Part shown: positions 48,369 through 52,462 of the stretch, in pieces
Layout of the letters: each line of letters opens with the position of its first letter
Position numbering within the stretch: the first letter of the stretch is position 1
Source: Heyndrickxia coagulans 36D1
GTDB taxonomy: Bacteria; Bacillota; Bacilli; Bacillales; Bacillaceae_C
Direction of reading: 5' to 3'
Length of the DNA stretch: 64,000 nucleotides
Assembly: GCF_000169195.2 (NCBI RefSeq)
Contig: NC_016023.1
Coordinates: 1,860,001 to 1,924,000 of the forward strand
Translations under genes and position numbers: made by a program
The notes under the pieces: generated by a model
What the model saw: the letters and a program-made list of their open reading frames with translations, nothing else
The model's database searches: none
What the model was told of the DNA's origin: nothing

Positions 48369-48397
48369 TTGAAAAACGAACGTTTGTCCTTTATAAT
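48369..48397 (+). promoter_or_regulatory. Promoter of the first Rpn gene
   Basis: TTGAAA (48369-48374), a 17-base spacer, TATAAT (48392-48397). Confidence 0.7.
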
Positions 48398-48429: not shown

Positions 48430-49419
48430 TTGGAACTTGTAATGGAAAAACATGCCGGTTATCACGTGCATGACCGTTTGTTTAAGGAGCTGATCCAAAA
48501 CTTTTTTCAGGAGTTTATGGATGCCTTTTTCCCGGATCTTTCAGCGGATCTCGACTACCGCCGGGTGCGGTTTTTGTCGCAGGAACAGTTTACGGACTTT
48601 CCGGGCGGTGAGCAAAAACGGGTTGACATCCTCGCCGAAACGAAGGTAAAAGGGAAAGACACCGTGATTCTCATCCATGTTGAGCCGCAGTCGTATTACG
48701 AAAAGCCTTTTCCTGAACGCATGTTTCGTTATTACATGATGATCAGTCTCCGGCACCGGAAACCGGTATTGCCGATTGCCGTTTTCAGTTATGAGGAGAA
48801 AACAGAGACCCCTGATACGTACACCTTTGCGTTCCACAACATTGAAATTCTTCGTTTTCACTATTTATCCATTCATCTGATGAAACAAAATTGGAGAAAT
48901 TATATCCGGAGCAACAACCCTGTTGCCGCGGCATTATTAAGCAAAATGGGGTATACAGAAACAGAACGGGTGCAGGTCAAACTGGAGTTTCTGCGGATGC
49001 TGGCCCGGATGGAACTCGACCCTGCAAAAATGAGGCTGTTACACGGTTTCTTTGATTATTATTTAAAATTGAACGAAAAAGAGGAGGCGGAAGTAATGGA
49101 AAACATTAAAATGCTGGATCCGGACGAAGCAGAGCAAGTATTGAAATTGCCGAATTCCTATTTTGACCGCGGGTATAAGAAGGGGAAAGAGGAAGGCAGA
49201 GAAGAAGGAATTGAAATAGGAGTAGAGAAGGGAAGAGAAGAAGGAATTGAAATAGGAGTAGAGAAGGGGAGAGAAGAAGAGAGAAAAGAAATGTTACAAA
49301 CGATCCCAATTGCCATCAAAATGTTGCAGGAGGGTAGGGAGCTTCAATTAATTGTGGAAAAAACTGGCCTGAGCCAGAGAGAAGTGGAAAAAATAAAACA
49401 ACAATTGGAGCATTCATAA
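48430..49419 (+). CDS. Rpn-family PD-(D/E)XK nuclease, copy 1
   Basis: 329 residues. TTG 48430 lies 8 bases after AAAAGGAG, whose last G is base 48421, so the GTG there cannot be the start. The nuclease core has Asp66 (RVDILAE), Glu85 and Gln87 (HVEPQS), the D-ExQ arrangement of Rpn/PDDEXK_2 proteins. From about 240 the chain becomes a Lys/Glu/Gly-rich repeat tail (REEGIEIGVEKG twice), ending in a small helical domain (LIVEKTGLSQREVEKIKQQL). E. coli Rpn nucleases are toxic antiphage proteins inhibited by a short form translated from an internal start. Here AGGAGG (49082-49087) and ATG 49096 provide exactly such a site. Confidence 0.85.
   Translation: MELVMEKHAGYHVHDRLFKELIQNFFQEFMDAFFPDLSADLDYRRVRFLSQEQFTDFPGGEQKRVDILAETKVKGKDTVILIHVEPQSYYEKPFPERMFRYYMMISLRHRKPVLPIAVFSYEEKTETPDTYTFAFHNIEILRFHYLSIHLMKQNWRNYIRSNNPVAAALLSKMGYTETERVQVKLEFLRMLARMELDPAKMRLLHGFFDYYLKLNEKEEAEVMENIKMLDPDEAEQVLKLPNSYFDRGYKKGKEEGREEGIEIGVEKGREEGIEIGVEKGREEERKEMLQTIPIAIKMLQEGRELQLIVEKTGLSQREVEKIKQQLEHS
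49096..49419 (+). CDS. Internal short form of Rpn copy 1 (candidate intragenic antitoxin)
   Basis: In-frame ATG 49096 is 8 bases after GAGGAGGCGG, a stronger ribosome site than that of the full gene. The product would be 107 residues: MENIKMLDPDEAEQVLKLPN, the repeat tail and the C-terminal helical domain, without the nuclease core. The layout matches the RpnS short proteins known from E. coli. Inference from site strength and family precedent. Confidence 0.55.
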   Translation: MENIKMLDPDEAEQVLKLPNSYFDRGYKKGKEEGREEGIEIGVEKGREEGIEIGVEKGREEERKEMLQTIPIAIKMLQEGRELQLIVEKTGLSQREVEKIKQQLEHS

Positions 49420-49420
49420 G

Positions 49421-49684
49421 ATGGAAGTCAGGCTGCCTGGTGTGGATGGAAAAGAAGTTGTTTTAGACTTGCCGAACTATTATTATGACCTCGGGTATGA
49501 AAAGGGATTTAAAGAGGGATTTAAAGAAGGATTTAAAGAAGGATTTAAAGAAGGAGTAAAGGAGGGAAGAGAAGAAGAAAGAACACGATTGATTATCAAC
49601 TTTCTAAAAAATCAAGTGGATGTGAAGGTCATTGCCCAAGCATCCGGCTTGAGTGAAGACGAGATCATGAAAATCAAAAGGTAG
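49421..49684 (+). CDS. Free-standing Rpn C-terminal tail protein
   Basis: 87 residues starting 1 base after the Rpn stop. It opens MEVRLPGVDGKEVVLDLPNY, continues with four GFKE repeats and ends in the tail domain LIINFLKNQVDVKVIAQASG...DEIMKIKR, nearly the same as the end of Rpn copy 2. It has no nuclease core. It could be a remnant of a deleted Rpn gene or a separate antitoxin-like short form. Confidence 0.6.
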   Translation: MEVRLPGVDGKEVVLDLPNYYYDLGYEKGFKEGFKEGFKEGFKEGVKEGREEERTRLIINFLKNQVDVKVIAQASGLSEDEIMKIKR

Positions 49685-49829
49685 ATAGAGGGGTAGGAGC
49701 AATAGCCCCTTCTTATCACCTGTTTGATTGTAAACCCATAAAAATAAAAACAGATTGGAAAGTGAAGAAATTCGTCTTCTCTGATAGACCCCTGTTACTC
49801 AAACTCATTTAAAAAGACCATGGTTTGCG

Positions 49830-49854
49830 GTTTTTTCAAAGTTCCTAAGGGAAT
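49830..49854 (+). promoter_or_regulatory. Candidate sigma-B promoter
   Basis: GTTTTT (49830-49835), 13 bases, GGGAAT (49849-49854), against the consensus GTTTAA-N13/14-GGGTAT. It lies 29 bases before a general-stress-type gene. Confidence 0.55.
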
Positions 49855-49882
49855 AATTTAAGTAAAAGAATGAGGTGATGAC

Positions 49883-50371
49883 ATGGGAAATGCTGAACAA
49901 AATAGGGAAGCAGTCTCCAAGCTACGGGAATTAATAAAAGATATTGACACAGCCATGCTGACTACAATGTCGGACAAAGGCCTTGTCGCACGCCCAATGA
50001 AGACGCAAGATGTTGAGTTTGATGGAGATTTGTGGTTTTTCACAAAAAAAGATACGGATAAGTTTCATGAAATTTTACACAACCGTGAAGTAAATGTTAC
50101 CTACGCTGGAAAGTCTTATGTGTCCGTCCGCGGCACTGCCGAGATTGTCGAAGACCCCGCAAAGAAGAAAGAATATTGGAGCGCCGGTTATGAGAAACTC
50201 TTGAAAACGAGTTACGATGATCCAAACGTAATATTGCTAAAAGTGAATGTGAAATCTGCCGAGTACTGGGATTCCGGAAACTTCGCGAAGATGGTCATTC
50301 ATTTCTTTAACAGAGTGGTTGGCAATGAGACCGATGATGACCATTTAAACGAAACTTTGAAATTTAAATAA
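49883..50371 (+). CDS. General stress protein 26-like, pyridoxamine 5'-phosphate oxidase fold
   Basis: 162 residues from ATG 49883, after GAATGAGGTGATG. It is a split-barrel flavin-binding fold of the GSP26/YdaG type: AMLTTMSDKGLVARPM, DGDLWFFTKKDTDKFHEI, VNVTYAGKSYVSVRGTAEI. Such proteins bind FMN/FAD and belong to the sigma-B regulon in B. subtilis; the enzymatic reaction is unsettled. It sits between the two Rpn copies, apparently unrelated to them. A stem-loop (GAGCCGG/CCGGCTTC, 50378-50398) follows without a T tract. Confidence 0.85.
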   Translation: MGNAEQNREAVSKLRELIKDIDTAMLTTMSDKGLVARPMKTQDVEFDGDLWFFTKKDTDKFHEILHNREVNVTYAGKSYVSVRGTAEIVEDPAKKKEYWSAGYEKLLKTSYDDPNVILLKVNVKSAEYWDSGNFAKMVIHFFNRVVGNETDDDHLNETLKFK

Positions 50372-50439
50372 TACAGAAGAGCCGGTTAGTCCGGCTTCCC
50401 TGTATCTCTGCTATATAAAATGAACTTAAGTTTTTCGTG

Positions 50440-50477
50440 CCAAAATCAATGGCGATCACGATTGACATTGATTTTGG
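50440..50477. repeat. Perfect 12-bp inverted repeat upstream of Rpn copy 2
   Basis: CCAAAATCAATG (50440-50451) and CATTGATTTTGG (50466-50477) have a 14-base spacer. It is about 50 bases upstream of the Rpn2 promoter; possibly an operator or hairpin. Confidence 0.5.
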
Positions 50478-50526
50478 TAACATATAGAGAAGTAGTAAAT
50501 GTTTAGTTCAACTTATATAGTCGGTA

Positions 50527-50555
50527 TTGAAATAGGGACAATCGTCCTCTAAAAT
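50527..50555 (+). promoter_or_regulatory. Promoter of the second Rpn gene
   Basis: TTGAAA (50527-50532), 17 bases, TAAAAT (50550-50555). It is positioned exactly as in copy 1, with the same leader downstream. Confidence 0.65.
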
Positions 50556-50587
50556 AAAACTGAAAAATAAGAAAAGGAGTGCTGCCA

Positions 50588-51481
50588 TTGGAACTTGTAA
50601 TGGAAAAACATGCCGGTTATCACGTGCATGATCGTTTTTTTAAAGAGCTGATCCAAAACTTTTTTCAGGAGTTTATGGAGGCGTTTTTTCCGGATGTGTC
50701 AACGGATCTTGACTACCGCCGGGTGAGGTTTTTGTCGCAGGAACAGTTTACGGACTTTCCGGGCGGTGAGCAAAAACGGGTTGACATCCTTGCCGAAACG
50801 AAGGTAAAAGGGAAAGACACGGTGATTCTCATCCATGTAGAGCCGCAGTCGTATTACGAGAAACCTTTTCCTGAACGCATGTTTCGTTATTACATGATGA
50901 TCAGTCTGCGGCACCGGAAACCGGTATTGCCGATTGCCGTTTTTAGTTACGAGGAGAAAACAGAGACCCCTGATACGTACACCTTTGCGTTCCACAACAT
51001 TGAAATTCTTCGTTTTCACTATTTATCCATTCATCTGATGAAGCAAAATTGGAGAAATTATATCCGGAGCAACAACCCTGTTGCTGCGGCATTATTAAGC
51101 AAAATGGGGTATACAGAAACAGAACGGGTGCAGGTCAAACTGGAGTTTCTGCGGATGCTGGCGCGGATGGAACTCGACCCTGCAAAAATGAGGCTGCTAT
51201 ACGGTTTCTTTGATTATTATTTAAAATTGAACGAAAAAGAGGAGGCGGAAGTAATGGAAAACATTAAAATGCTGGATCCGGACGAAGCAGAGCAAGTATT
51301 GAAATTACCGAATTCCTATTTTGATCGCGGGTATAAGAAGGGAAGAGAAGAAGAAAGAGAACGATTGATTATCAATTTACTAAAAAATCGAGTGGATGTA
51401 AAAGTCATTGCCCAAGCATCCGGCTTGAGTGAAGACGAGATCATGAAGATCAAAAGGCAGATAGAAGGGGAAAAGCCTTGA
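50588..51481 (+). CDS. Rpn-family PD-(D/E)XK nuclease, copy 2
   Basis: 297 residues from TTG 50588, with the same leader and ribosome site as copy 1. The first about 260 residues are nearly identical to copy 1, including the Asp66, Glu85 and Gln87 positions. The repeat tail is replaced by a shorter one (KKGREEERERLIINLLKN) ending in the DEIMKIKRQIEG domain. The body is conserved while the C-terminus is exchanged. An internal ATG at 51254 with AGGAGG (51240-51245) is preserved. Confidence 0.85.
   Translation: MELVMEKHAGYHVHDRFFKELIQNFFQEFMEAFFPDVSTDLDYRRVRFLSQEQFTDFPGGEQKRVDILAETKVKGKDTVILIHVEPQSYYEKPFPERMFRYYMMISLRHRKPVLPIAVFSYEEKTETPDTYTFAFHNIEILRFHYLSIHLMKQNWRNYIRSNNPVAAALLSKMGYTETERVQVKLEFLRMLARMELDPAKMRLLYGFFDYYLKLNEKEEAEVMENIKMLDPDEAEQVLKLPNSYFDRGYKKGREEERERLIINLLKNRVDVKVIAQASGLSEDEIMKIKRQIEGEKP
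51254..51481 (+). CDS. Internal short form of Rpn copy 2 (candidate intragenic antitoxin)
   Basis: In-frame ATG 51254 is 8 bases after AGGAGG. The 75-residue product comprises the KMLDPDEAEQVLKLPN linker, a short charged repeat and the tail domain. It parallels 49096-49419 but with the other tail type. Confidence 0.55.
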   Translation: MENIKMLDPDEAEQVLKLPNSYFDRGYKKGREEERERLIINLLKNRVDVKVIAQASGLSEDEIMKIKRQIEGEKP

Positions 51482-51761
51482 ATCAGAGTTATGATGAGGC
51501 GGAGCAAGTATTGAAATTGCCGAATTCTTACTTTGACCGCGGGTATAAGAAGGGGAAAGAGGAAGGAATTGAAATAGGAGTAGAGAAGGGGAGAGAAGAA
51601 GAAAGAGAAGAAGAAAGAGAAGAAGGAAAAAAGGTTAAGAAGATTTATTGTTAACTTGCTAAAAAATCAAGTGGATGTGAAGGTCATTGTCCAGGCATCT
51701 GGCTTGAGTGAAGACGAGATCATGAAAATCAAAAGGCAGATAGAAGGGGGAAAGCCTTGAA
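51478..51761 (+). pseudogene. Detached Rpn tail 1, frameshifted
   Basis: TTG 51478 overlaps the Rpn2 stop. It reads NQSYDEAEQVLKLPNSYFD, then a (EEERE)n repeat, and stops at 51652-51654. In another frame the expected tail (FIVNLLKNQVDVK...MKIKRQIEGG) continues to about 51760. A single frameshift explains the break. Confidence 0.6.
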
Positions 51762-51985
51762 CCCGAGTTATGACGAAGCAGAGCAAGTATTGAAGCTGCC
51801 GAATCCCTATTTTGACCGCGGCATAAGAAGGGGGAGAGAAGAAAAAAGAAAAGAATTTTTTGCAAACGATCCCAATTGCCATCAAAATGTTGCAGGAGGG
51901 TATGGAGCTTCAATTAATTGTGGAAAAAACTGGCCTGAGCCAGAGAGAAGTGGAAAAAATAAAACAACAATTGGAGCATTCATAA
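51757..51985 (+). pseudogene. Detached Rpn tail 2, frameshifted
   Basis: It repeats the NPSYDEAEQVLKLPNPYFDRG opening, then loses frame near 51820 (GGCATAAG for GGGTATAAG). It continues as the copy-1 type tail (TIPIAIKMLQEG, LIVEKTGLSQREVEKIKQQLEHS). Confidence 0.6.
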
Positions 51986-51986
51986 G

Positions 51987-52139
51987 ATGGAAGTCAGGCT
52001 GCCTGGTGTGGATGGAAAAGAAGTTGTTTTAGACTTGCCGAACTATTATTATGACCTCGGGTATGAAAAGGGATTTAAAGATGGGTTTAAAGAGGGATTT
52101 AAGGAGGGATTTAAAGAATTATTTGAAAAAGGAGTATAA
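51987..52139 (+). CDS. Free-standing Rpn tail opening, copy of 49421-49684, truncated
   Basis: 50 residues, MEVRLPGVDGKEVVLDLPNY followed by four GFK(E/D) repeats, ending early (LFEKGV). Beyond it a third tail type is readable with a frameshift: LQTIVTGMLKNGVEPQLIVDMNELSHTEVE, to about 52278. Probably decayed. Confidence 0.45.
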   Translation: MEVRLPGVDGKEVVLDLPNYYYDLGYEKGFKDGFKEGFKEGFKELFEKGV

Positions 52140-52462
52140 GGAAGGGCAGAAAGGCATTCTTACAAACCATTGTGACCGGGATGCTCAAGAATGGCGTGGA
52201 GCCACAATTGATTGTTGACATGAACGAGCTCAGCCACACAGAAGTAGAAAAAAATAAAACAGCGATTGGAACATGCATAAGCTGGAAGTCAGGTATCCGT
52301 TAAAAACGGGCTGTTTCTTGCGGGAGGCAGTCCGTTACCTTGCCATGACCGGAGCTTAAGTCCCTAGCACTTTTTCAAATCTGGGCACGCGCTTATAAGC
52401 AATCTTTTAAACAAAGAAAATTCCATTGCTGTTTGGAGCTCATTAAAATCACCGTGTATGGA
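52140..52462. other. Tail relic and gap before the ribose operon
   Basis: 52140-52278 is the frameshifted third tail type. The remainder shows no gene. Confidence 0.45.

Follow-up and report, generated by a model that had tools for sequence, protein, structure and literature searches.

We analyzed a 64,000-nucleotide (nt) stretch of the Heyndrickxia coagulans 36D1 genome, bases 1,860,001-1,924,000 of a single 3,552,226-base contig, referred to here as the window. H. coagulans is a species sold as a probiotic. The window contains two Rpn-type genes, copies A and B, whose open reading frames (ORFs) of 329 and 297 codons begin with TTG at 48430 and 50588. The two copies have a sigma-70-type promoter, a leader, and a nuclease core in common, and their C-terminal tails differ in type (C1 in A versus C2 in B) and in repeat number. 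At the border of core and tail, both genes carry an AGGAGG Shine-Dalgarno (SD) sequence followed by an in-frame ATG. Tails detached from any core lie downstream. We describe each tail as a cap, a helix of four-residue repeats, and a C end of type C1 or C2. The full-length protein is called RpnL, and the predicted product of the internal start is called RpnS. The relevant features, numbered from the first base of the window, are as follows:

48369-48397, plus strand: promoter of copy A, TTGAAA-17-TATAAT, 11 of 12 matches; similarity among the seven copies in the genome starts about here
48430-49419, plus strand: rpn copy A, full-length RpnL, TTG start, SD AAGGAG, 329 amino acids (aa); nuclease core residues 1-222, candidate catalytic residues D66, E85, and Q87
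49082-49087, plus strand: internal SD of copy A, AGGAGG, 8 nt upstream of the in-frame ATG at 49096
49096-49419, plus strand: predicted internal product RpnS of copy A, 107 aa; tail type C1, repeat helix of 40 aa
49421-49684, plus strand: detached tail A2, 87 aa, intact; MEVRLPG cap, FKEG repeats, C2 end
50527-50555, plus strand: promoter of copy B, TTGAAA-17-TAAAAT, sigma-70-type
50588-51481, plus strand: rpn copy B, full-length RpnL, TTG start, 297 aa; core and tail
51240-51245, plus strand: internal SD of copy B, AGGAGG, 8 nt upstream of the in-frame ATG at 51254
51254-51481, plus strand: predicted internal product RpnS of copy B, 75 aa; tail type C2, repeat helix of 9 aa
51478-51760, plus strand: detached tail B2, frameshifted; TTG overlapping the stop of B, NPSYDE cap, C2 end
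51757-51985, plus strand: detached tail B3, frameshifted; NPSYDE cap, C1 end that differs from the one fused in copy A at 1 of 93 nt
51987-52280, plus strand: detached tail B4, frameshifted, open frame ending at 52139; MEVRLPG cap, FKEG repeats, C1-like end

An initial annotation of this DNA had described two Rpn genes with a common promoter, leader, and core and different tails, an AGGAGG and in-frame ATG just before each tail (49096 and 51254), and four detached tails downstream. All of these elements are present: the ORFs span 48430-49419 and 50588-51481, the SD spacing is 8 nt in both, and detached tails begin at 49421, 51478, 51757, and 51987. The annotation also held that some detached tails are frameshifted, which is true of those at 51478 and 51757, and that those at 49421 and 51987 are intact. 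The first of these stands, but the frame at 51987 stops ahead of the C-terminal domain, and A2 is the sole intact tail among the four. A 259-nt stretch at 49294-49552 is found again at 51860-52118 with 97% identity. This recurrence, together with five more copies of the same layout elsewhere in the genome, places the arrangement of the window beyond chance.

The five further copies, which we call C to G, were found by a whole-genome search for the core. They show 89-98% protein identity to copy A, and all carry a promoter and leader matching those of A and B. The seven cores are 95-98% identical to one another. The copies sit scattered between ordinary genes, and only A and B are close together. 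Dispersed copies with a sharp 5' boundary, where upstream similarity starts at the -35 box, would fit a transposase-like mobile unit whose tails are passenger ends, and the family has indeed been annotated as "putative transposase." We rejected this idea as highly improbable: we found no 3' end shared by the seven loci and no inverted repeats in the region, and a published analysis, in which neither terminal repeats nor target duplications turned up, speaks against transposition (PMC10327210). A search for a clean empty site found none; the C locus in another genome (G003) is occupied by other genes.

Zhong et al. (2023) reported that full-length Rpn proteins are toxic nucleases and that translation from an internal start yields the tail by itself, which acts as a specific antitoxin, with specificity set by the number of repeats (PMC10327210). 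Aligning a Bacillales profile to E. coli RpnA and RpnE with hhalign gave probabilities of 96.5-98.2% and E values of 1e-9 or better, and the alignments span the core, the D..E.Q motif, and the C-terminal tail. The proposed membership in the Rpn family (recombination-promoting nuclease, COG5464/TIGR01784) is thus borne out. As in the RpnL/RpnS design, the tail helices of the seven copies differ in how many four-residue repeats they contain. The predicted order of elements (helix-strand-strand-strand-helix-strand) would fit a PD-(D/E)XK nuclease, with D66, E85, and Q87 conserved, but the structure model is of low confidence (mean predicted local distance difference test score, 54), and a fold search gave no significant match. 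Matches from a search of solved structures were mostly to designed repeat proteins over the helical part, and we discounted them. No relatives appeared among the viral contigs and phage records searched, and a plasmid search returned only distant Rpn proteins, mostly cyanobacterial.

The internal start is conserved well beyond the window. Among 42 non-redundant Bacillales Rpn homologues, with identities as low as approximately 27%, the ATG at the core/tail border ranks first of the internal starts for SD pairing in 35. The internal SD of copy A (-12.3 kcal/mol, with ATG) pairs more strongly than the SD of its main start (-8.4, with TTG), as would be expected if an antitoxin were made in excess. 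The internal AGGAGG-ATG might instead be an unused by-product of the conserved EEAEVM protein motif, since the glutamate codons GAG GAG readily give SD-like sequence. We examined the internal SD by resampling synonymous codons in each gene and combining P values by Fisher's method. In favor of a by-product, single-gene tests gave p values of only 0.02-0.2 for many genes, but the combined P across the 42 homologues was 6e-10 (2e-7 in a first set of 23), a value that is approximate because the homologues have a common ancestry and the top-scoring ATG was chosen from a few. SD strength is also retained where the encoded residues differ (EDELVM, WEGGTM, EVEQM, and KEANHM), and the site is kept in derivatives that have lost the nuclease. 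We therefore consider the by-product explanation very unlikely. The match to the toxin/intragenic antitoxin design of E. coli Rpn, as first proposed for these genes, holds at the level of sequence.

We parsed the detached tails of copies A-G into modules using blastn (n = 14). Our sampling comprises one genome per species, module counts are small, and the evidence is computational. From the internal start onward, each tail is built of a cap, a run of four-residue repeats, and a C end. The C ends fall into two distantly similar types, C1 (..IAIKMLQEGMELQLIVEKTGLSQTEVEKIKQQLEHS) and C2 (..IVNLLKNQVDVKVIAQASGLSEDEIMKIKRQIEGEKP). Wherever a further module exists, its cap depends on the C end before it: MEVRLPG after C1, with an ATG just past the stop, and NPSYDE after C2, with a TTG overlapping the stop. 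This grammar is nearly strict, the sole exception being one degenerate array end in F. Because the cap is tied to the preceding C end, the mobile unit would comprise repeats, C end, and next cap, with joints in the cap/repeat region.

Six of the seven copies carry arrays of 1-3 detached modules, and copy G retains a cap remnant only. Ten of the 14 modules are intact, with a frame that runs uninterrupted from the module's own start to its end; A2 is included, although it ends a few residues short. Fused C1 ends occur in copies A, C, and G, and detached ones in B, C, D, and F. For C2, the copies with a fused end are B, D, E, and F, and those with a detached end are A, B, C, D, and E. The fused helices are 40, 20, and 16 residues long for C1 and 28, 20, 16, and 9 for C2, all different within a type. 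The C ends, with ratios of nonsynonymous to synonymous differences (pN/pS) of 0.11-0.33, are by this measure under purifying selection. For C2 ends, the ratio is 0.11 when fused and 0.28 when detached, a figure in which selection on detached tails is inseparable from constraint inherited from a fused past.

Modules found fused in one place are found detached in another. The DNA running from the fused C1 end of copy A into its first detached tail matches detached modules 3-4 of copy B over 293 nt at 95.6%, and the C1 ends of A (fused) and B3 (detached) differ at 1 of 93 positions. A module of approximately 290 nt that copy B has in detached form is fused to the nuclease of copy A. The fused and detached C2 ends of copy D have the sequence GGCCATC in common, which was not seen in the other copies.

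We compared these loci with those of the sister species H. coagulans DSM 1, in which four shared loci (A, C, E, and F) have a readable tail. The tail type linked to the internal start is the same at locus C and differs at the other three: C1 here versus C2 in DSM 1 at locus A, C2 versus C1-like at locus E, and C2 versus C1 at locus F. The module fused at locus F in DSM 1 differs at no more than 3-4 of 93 positions from the C1 modules that are detached in copies D and F of the present genome. For locus E, the closest counterpart of the DSM 1 tail, by a narrow margin, is the second module detached at that locus in the present genome. The cores of A and F are 91.6% and 94.3% identical to their syntenic DSM 1 counterparts, versus 95-98% among the seven copies, and cores group by genome. 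This grouping points to concerted evolution, in which case the copies would recombine or would have been re-acquired at the same sites.

DSM 1 has also lost nucleases. Nearly the whole core is gone at loci C, E, and G, and the internal SD and the tail are kept at all three. Loci C and E retain the promoter, leader start, last ~40 core codons, and internal SD, and their deletion junctions (L091 and L092) are nearly the same. The tail ORF at locus C is intact (87 aa) and promoter-bearing, the tail at E is frameshifted, and that at G is damaged. Because tail type differs at three of four DSM 1 loci, one module is fused in A and detached in B, and DSM 1 has lost nucleases, a history of tail exchange by recombination is well supported, and we regard it as likely. 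Diversification of tails by duplication and recombination, which the initial annotation had suggested, is likewise supported by the module grammar, the A/B match, the DSM 1 tail types, the homogenized cores, and the pN/pS ratios.

We propose that each full-length gene would encode an Rpn-family PD-(D/E)XK nuclease toxin (RpnL) and that the tail alone, translated from the strong internal start, would act as its small antitoxin (RpnS), following the E. coli model. Detached tails would have arisen by duplication of tail modules, and each has a start of its own that either overlaps the preceding stop or comes immediately after it. Because caps and in-frame 12-nt repeats are common to all modules, homologous recombination within an array or between dispersed copies could delete, add, or swap them. 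Recombination would alter the toxin tail and the intragenic antitoxin at once, so each new form would carry its own matching antitoxin. We infer that the tail is translated internally, that the nuclease is toxic, that the tail acts as an antitoxin, and that recombination was the route; the parts themselves, the conserved internal start, the module grammar, the fused and detached modules, the homogenized cores, and the nuclease-less derivatives that keep a tail can be read from the DNA. Taken as a whole, an Rpn toxin with an intragenic antitoxin tail and recombining tail modules is a probable explanation of these loci.

Several observations weigh against it. The two window copies score 43.8 and 46.9 bits against TIGR01784, under the curated cut-off of 52.1, and 19.6-20.3 against PF04754, under the cut-off of 21. 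The genome also holds copy H, at 60% identity, and more distant Rpn genes; copy H scores above the TIGR01784 cut-off (58.0), and the shortfall of A and B therefore lies in the reach of the model. A score against either model is not by itself treated as defining Rpn membership. The structure model is of low confidence. Four of the 14 detached modules are broken by frameshifts, including all three of B. Exchange is deduced between sister species and paralogues and was not seen between strains. Finally, the helix length of intact detached tails equals that of any resident fused tail of the same type in 0 of 8 cases among copies A-G (shuffled-label P 0.04).

Rpn loci outside the seven copies vary in their organization. 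Of ~95 other Bacillales Rpn loci, ~9 have a detached tail, which in most cases contains fewer repeats than its fused counterpart; trails of tails as a universal Rpn trait were thus rejected, being found at about one in ten. One locus (L103, G009:C478) has a detached tail made of two tails fused head to tail, and in the G042 family, L119 has a detached tail whose type is found fused at L116. There is a second pair of Rpn genes, distantly related (L035 and L036, G000:1680346 and G000:2518468), with ~160 bases of upstream DNA in common; each is accompanied by a single detached tail in which the internal ribosome site recurs, and a nuclease-less remnant lies at 764592. A distant remnant in the same genome as the seven copies, M, keeps a tail with an internal start. 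A relative from the same family (L099, G031:C6:3810000-3823000) has six complete, nearly identical Rpn genes in tandem, in units of ~1083 bases with truncated copies flanking. Another genome (G045) has several Rpn remnants split by stops or frameshifts (L124, L125, and L126) as well as intact copies.

The role of the detached tails was a further part of the initial annotation, which took them for antitoxin or specificity parts. This role is weakened by the helix-length mismatches, given that one added repeat abolished neutralization in E. coli (PMC10327210). If this rule holds here, each copy would form its own orthogonal pair, and detached tails would not be antitoxins of the present residents. 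The trail is also decaying, at least in part. The toxin/intragenic antitoxin assignment could be correct and the trails neutral debris, with repeats and shared caps being unstable, duplications arising and decaying, and the array having no function. The frameshifted modules, the cap remnant of G, the scarcity of detached tails at other Bacillales loci, the weaker pN/pS of detached than of fused C2 ends, and the lack of length matches all favor debris; the ten modules open from their own starts, their retained start contexts, and detached-end ratios well below 1 (though possibly inherited) do not. We put this possibility at slightly less than an even chance for the trails as a whole, and debris is our best single guess for many of the detached tails.

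Detached tails might otherwise be working antitoxins in trans, an immunity bank against sibling or incoming Rpn toxins, like rpnES/ypaA of E. coli. Their own starts have SD energies of -5.6 to -11.3 kcal/mol, frames are intact, the detached RpnES is produced in E. coli (PMC10327210), the promoter-bearing RpnS gene persists at DSM 1 locus C, and in the J/K family the detached tail of J has the helix length of K, 16. Lengths nevertheless differ in all same-type fused/detached pairs measured, and with the E. coli repeat rule, this makes an immunity bank doubtful. We are equally tentative about the arrays as a working cassette system, in which detached antitoxin modules would be stored, recombination would re-tail dispersed nucleases into new self-matched orthogonal pairs, and nuclease loss would leave stand-alone antitoxin genes. 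A maintained store of tails is possible. An adaptive role for spare tails, unlike the history of exchange, lies outside what is well supported.

The modular design of contact-dependent growth inhibition (CDI) and Rhs toxin loci offers a parallel in layout. Orphan cdiA-CT/cdiI and rhs-CT modules are displaced C-terminal modules that lie downstream of a full-length toxin gene, the upstream part of which is shared, suggesting a store for tail replacement (PMC3150448). The resemblance is one of layout alone, and the Rpn copies fall outside that family: CDI/Rhs systems have delivered toxin tails and separate immunity genes, whereas here the tail is a predicted antitoxin within the toxin itself. In-frame 12-nt repeats in a helix also change the specificity of EcoR124I/II, as cited by Zhong et al. 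(PMC10327210), but EcoR124I/II is a restriction enzyme, with a different protein and function.

The closest parallel is E. coli RpnA-E, which has a related core, an internal start before a variable tail, hypervariable four-residue repeats in the helix, and an alike C end (PMC10327210). The Rpn of C. difficile also makes an internal product, and one plasmid Rpn gives phage protection (PMC10327210). A detached downstream tail copy is known for rpnE/ypaA and rpnC, and its removal through deletion or fusion has also been described (PMC10327210). The Rpn toxin, internal antitoxin, and detached tails were all described by Zhong et al., and the design itself is therefore already known. Unlike E. coli, this H. 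coagulans genome has seven nearly identical copies at scattered sites, six of them followed by 1-3 detached modules in an array, as well as two tail types, a nearly strict linker grammar, and a module fused in one place and detached in another. Single detached tails are published. The main text of that report does not extend to multi-module arrays with two tail types, or to an exchange that can be seen between the fused and the detached position, and the shuffled arrays look like a novel form of the known design. Zhong et al. left open the origin of the repeats and of the downstream small-protein copies and what drives the variation (PMC10327210). This genome provides a compact natural experiment, with seven almost identical nucleases that differ in tail type and repeat number and carry arrays of spare tails, to which the sister species DSM 1 adds swapped tails and lost nucleases at the same loci.

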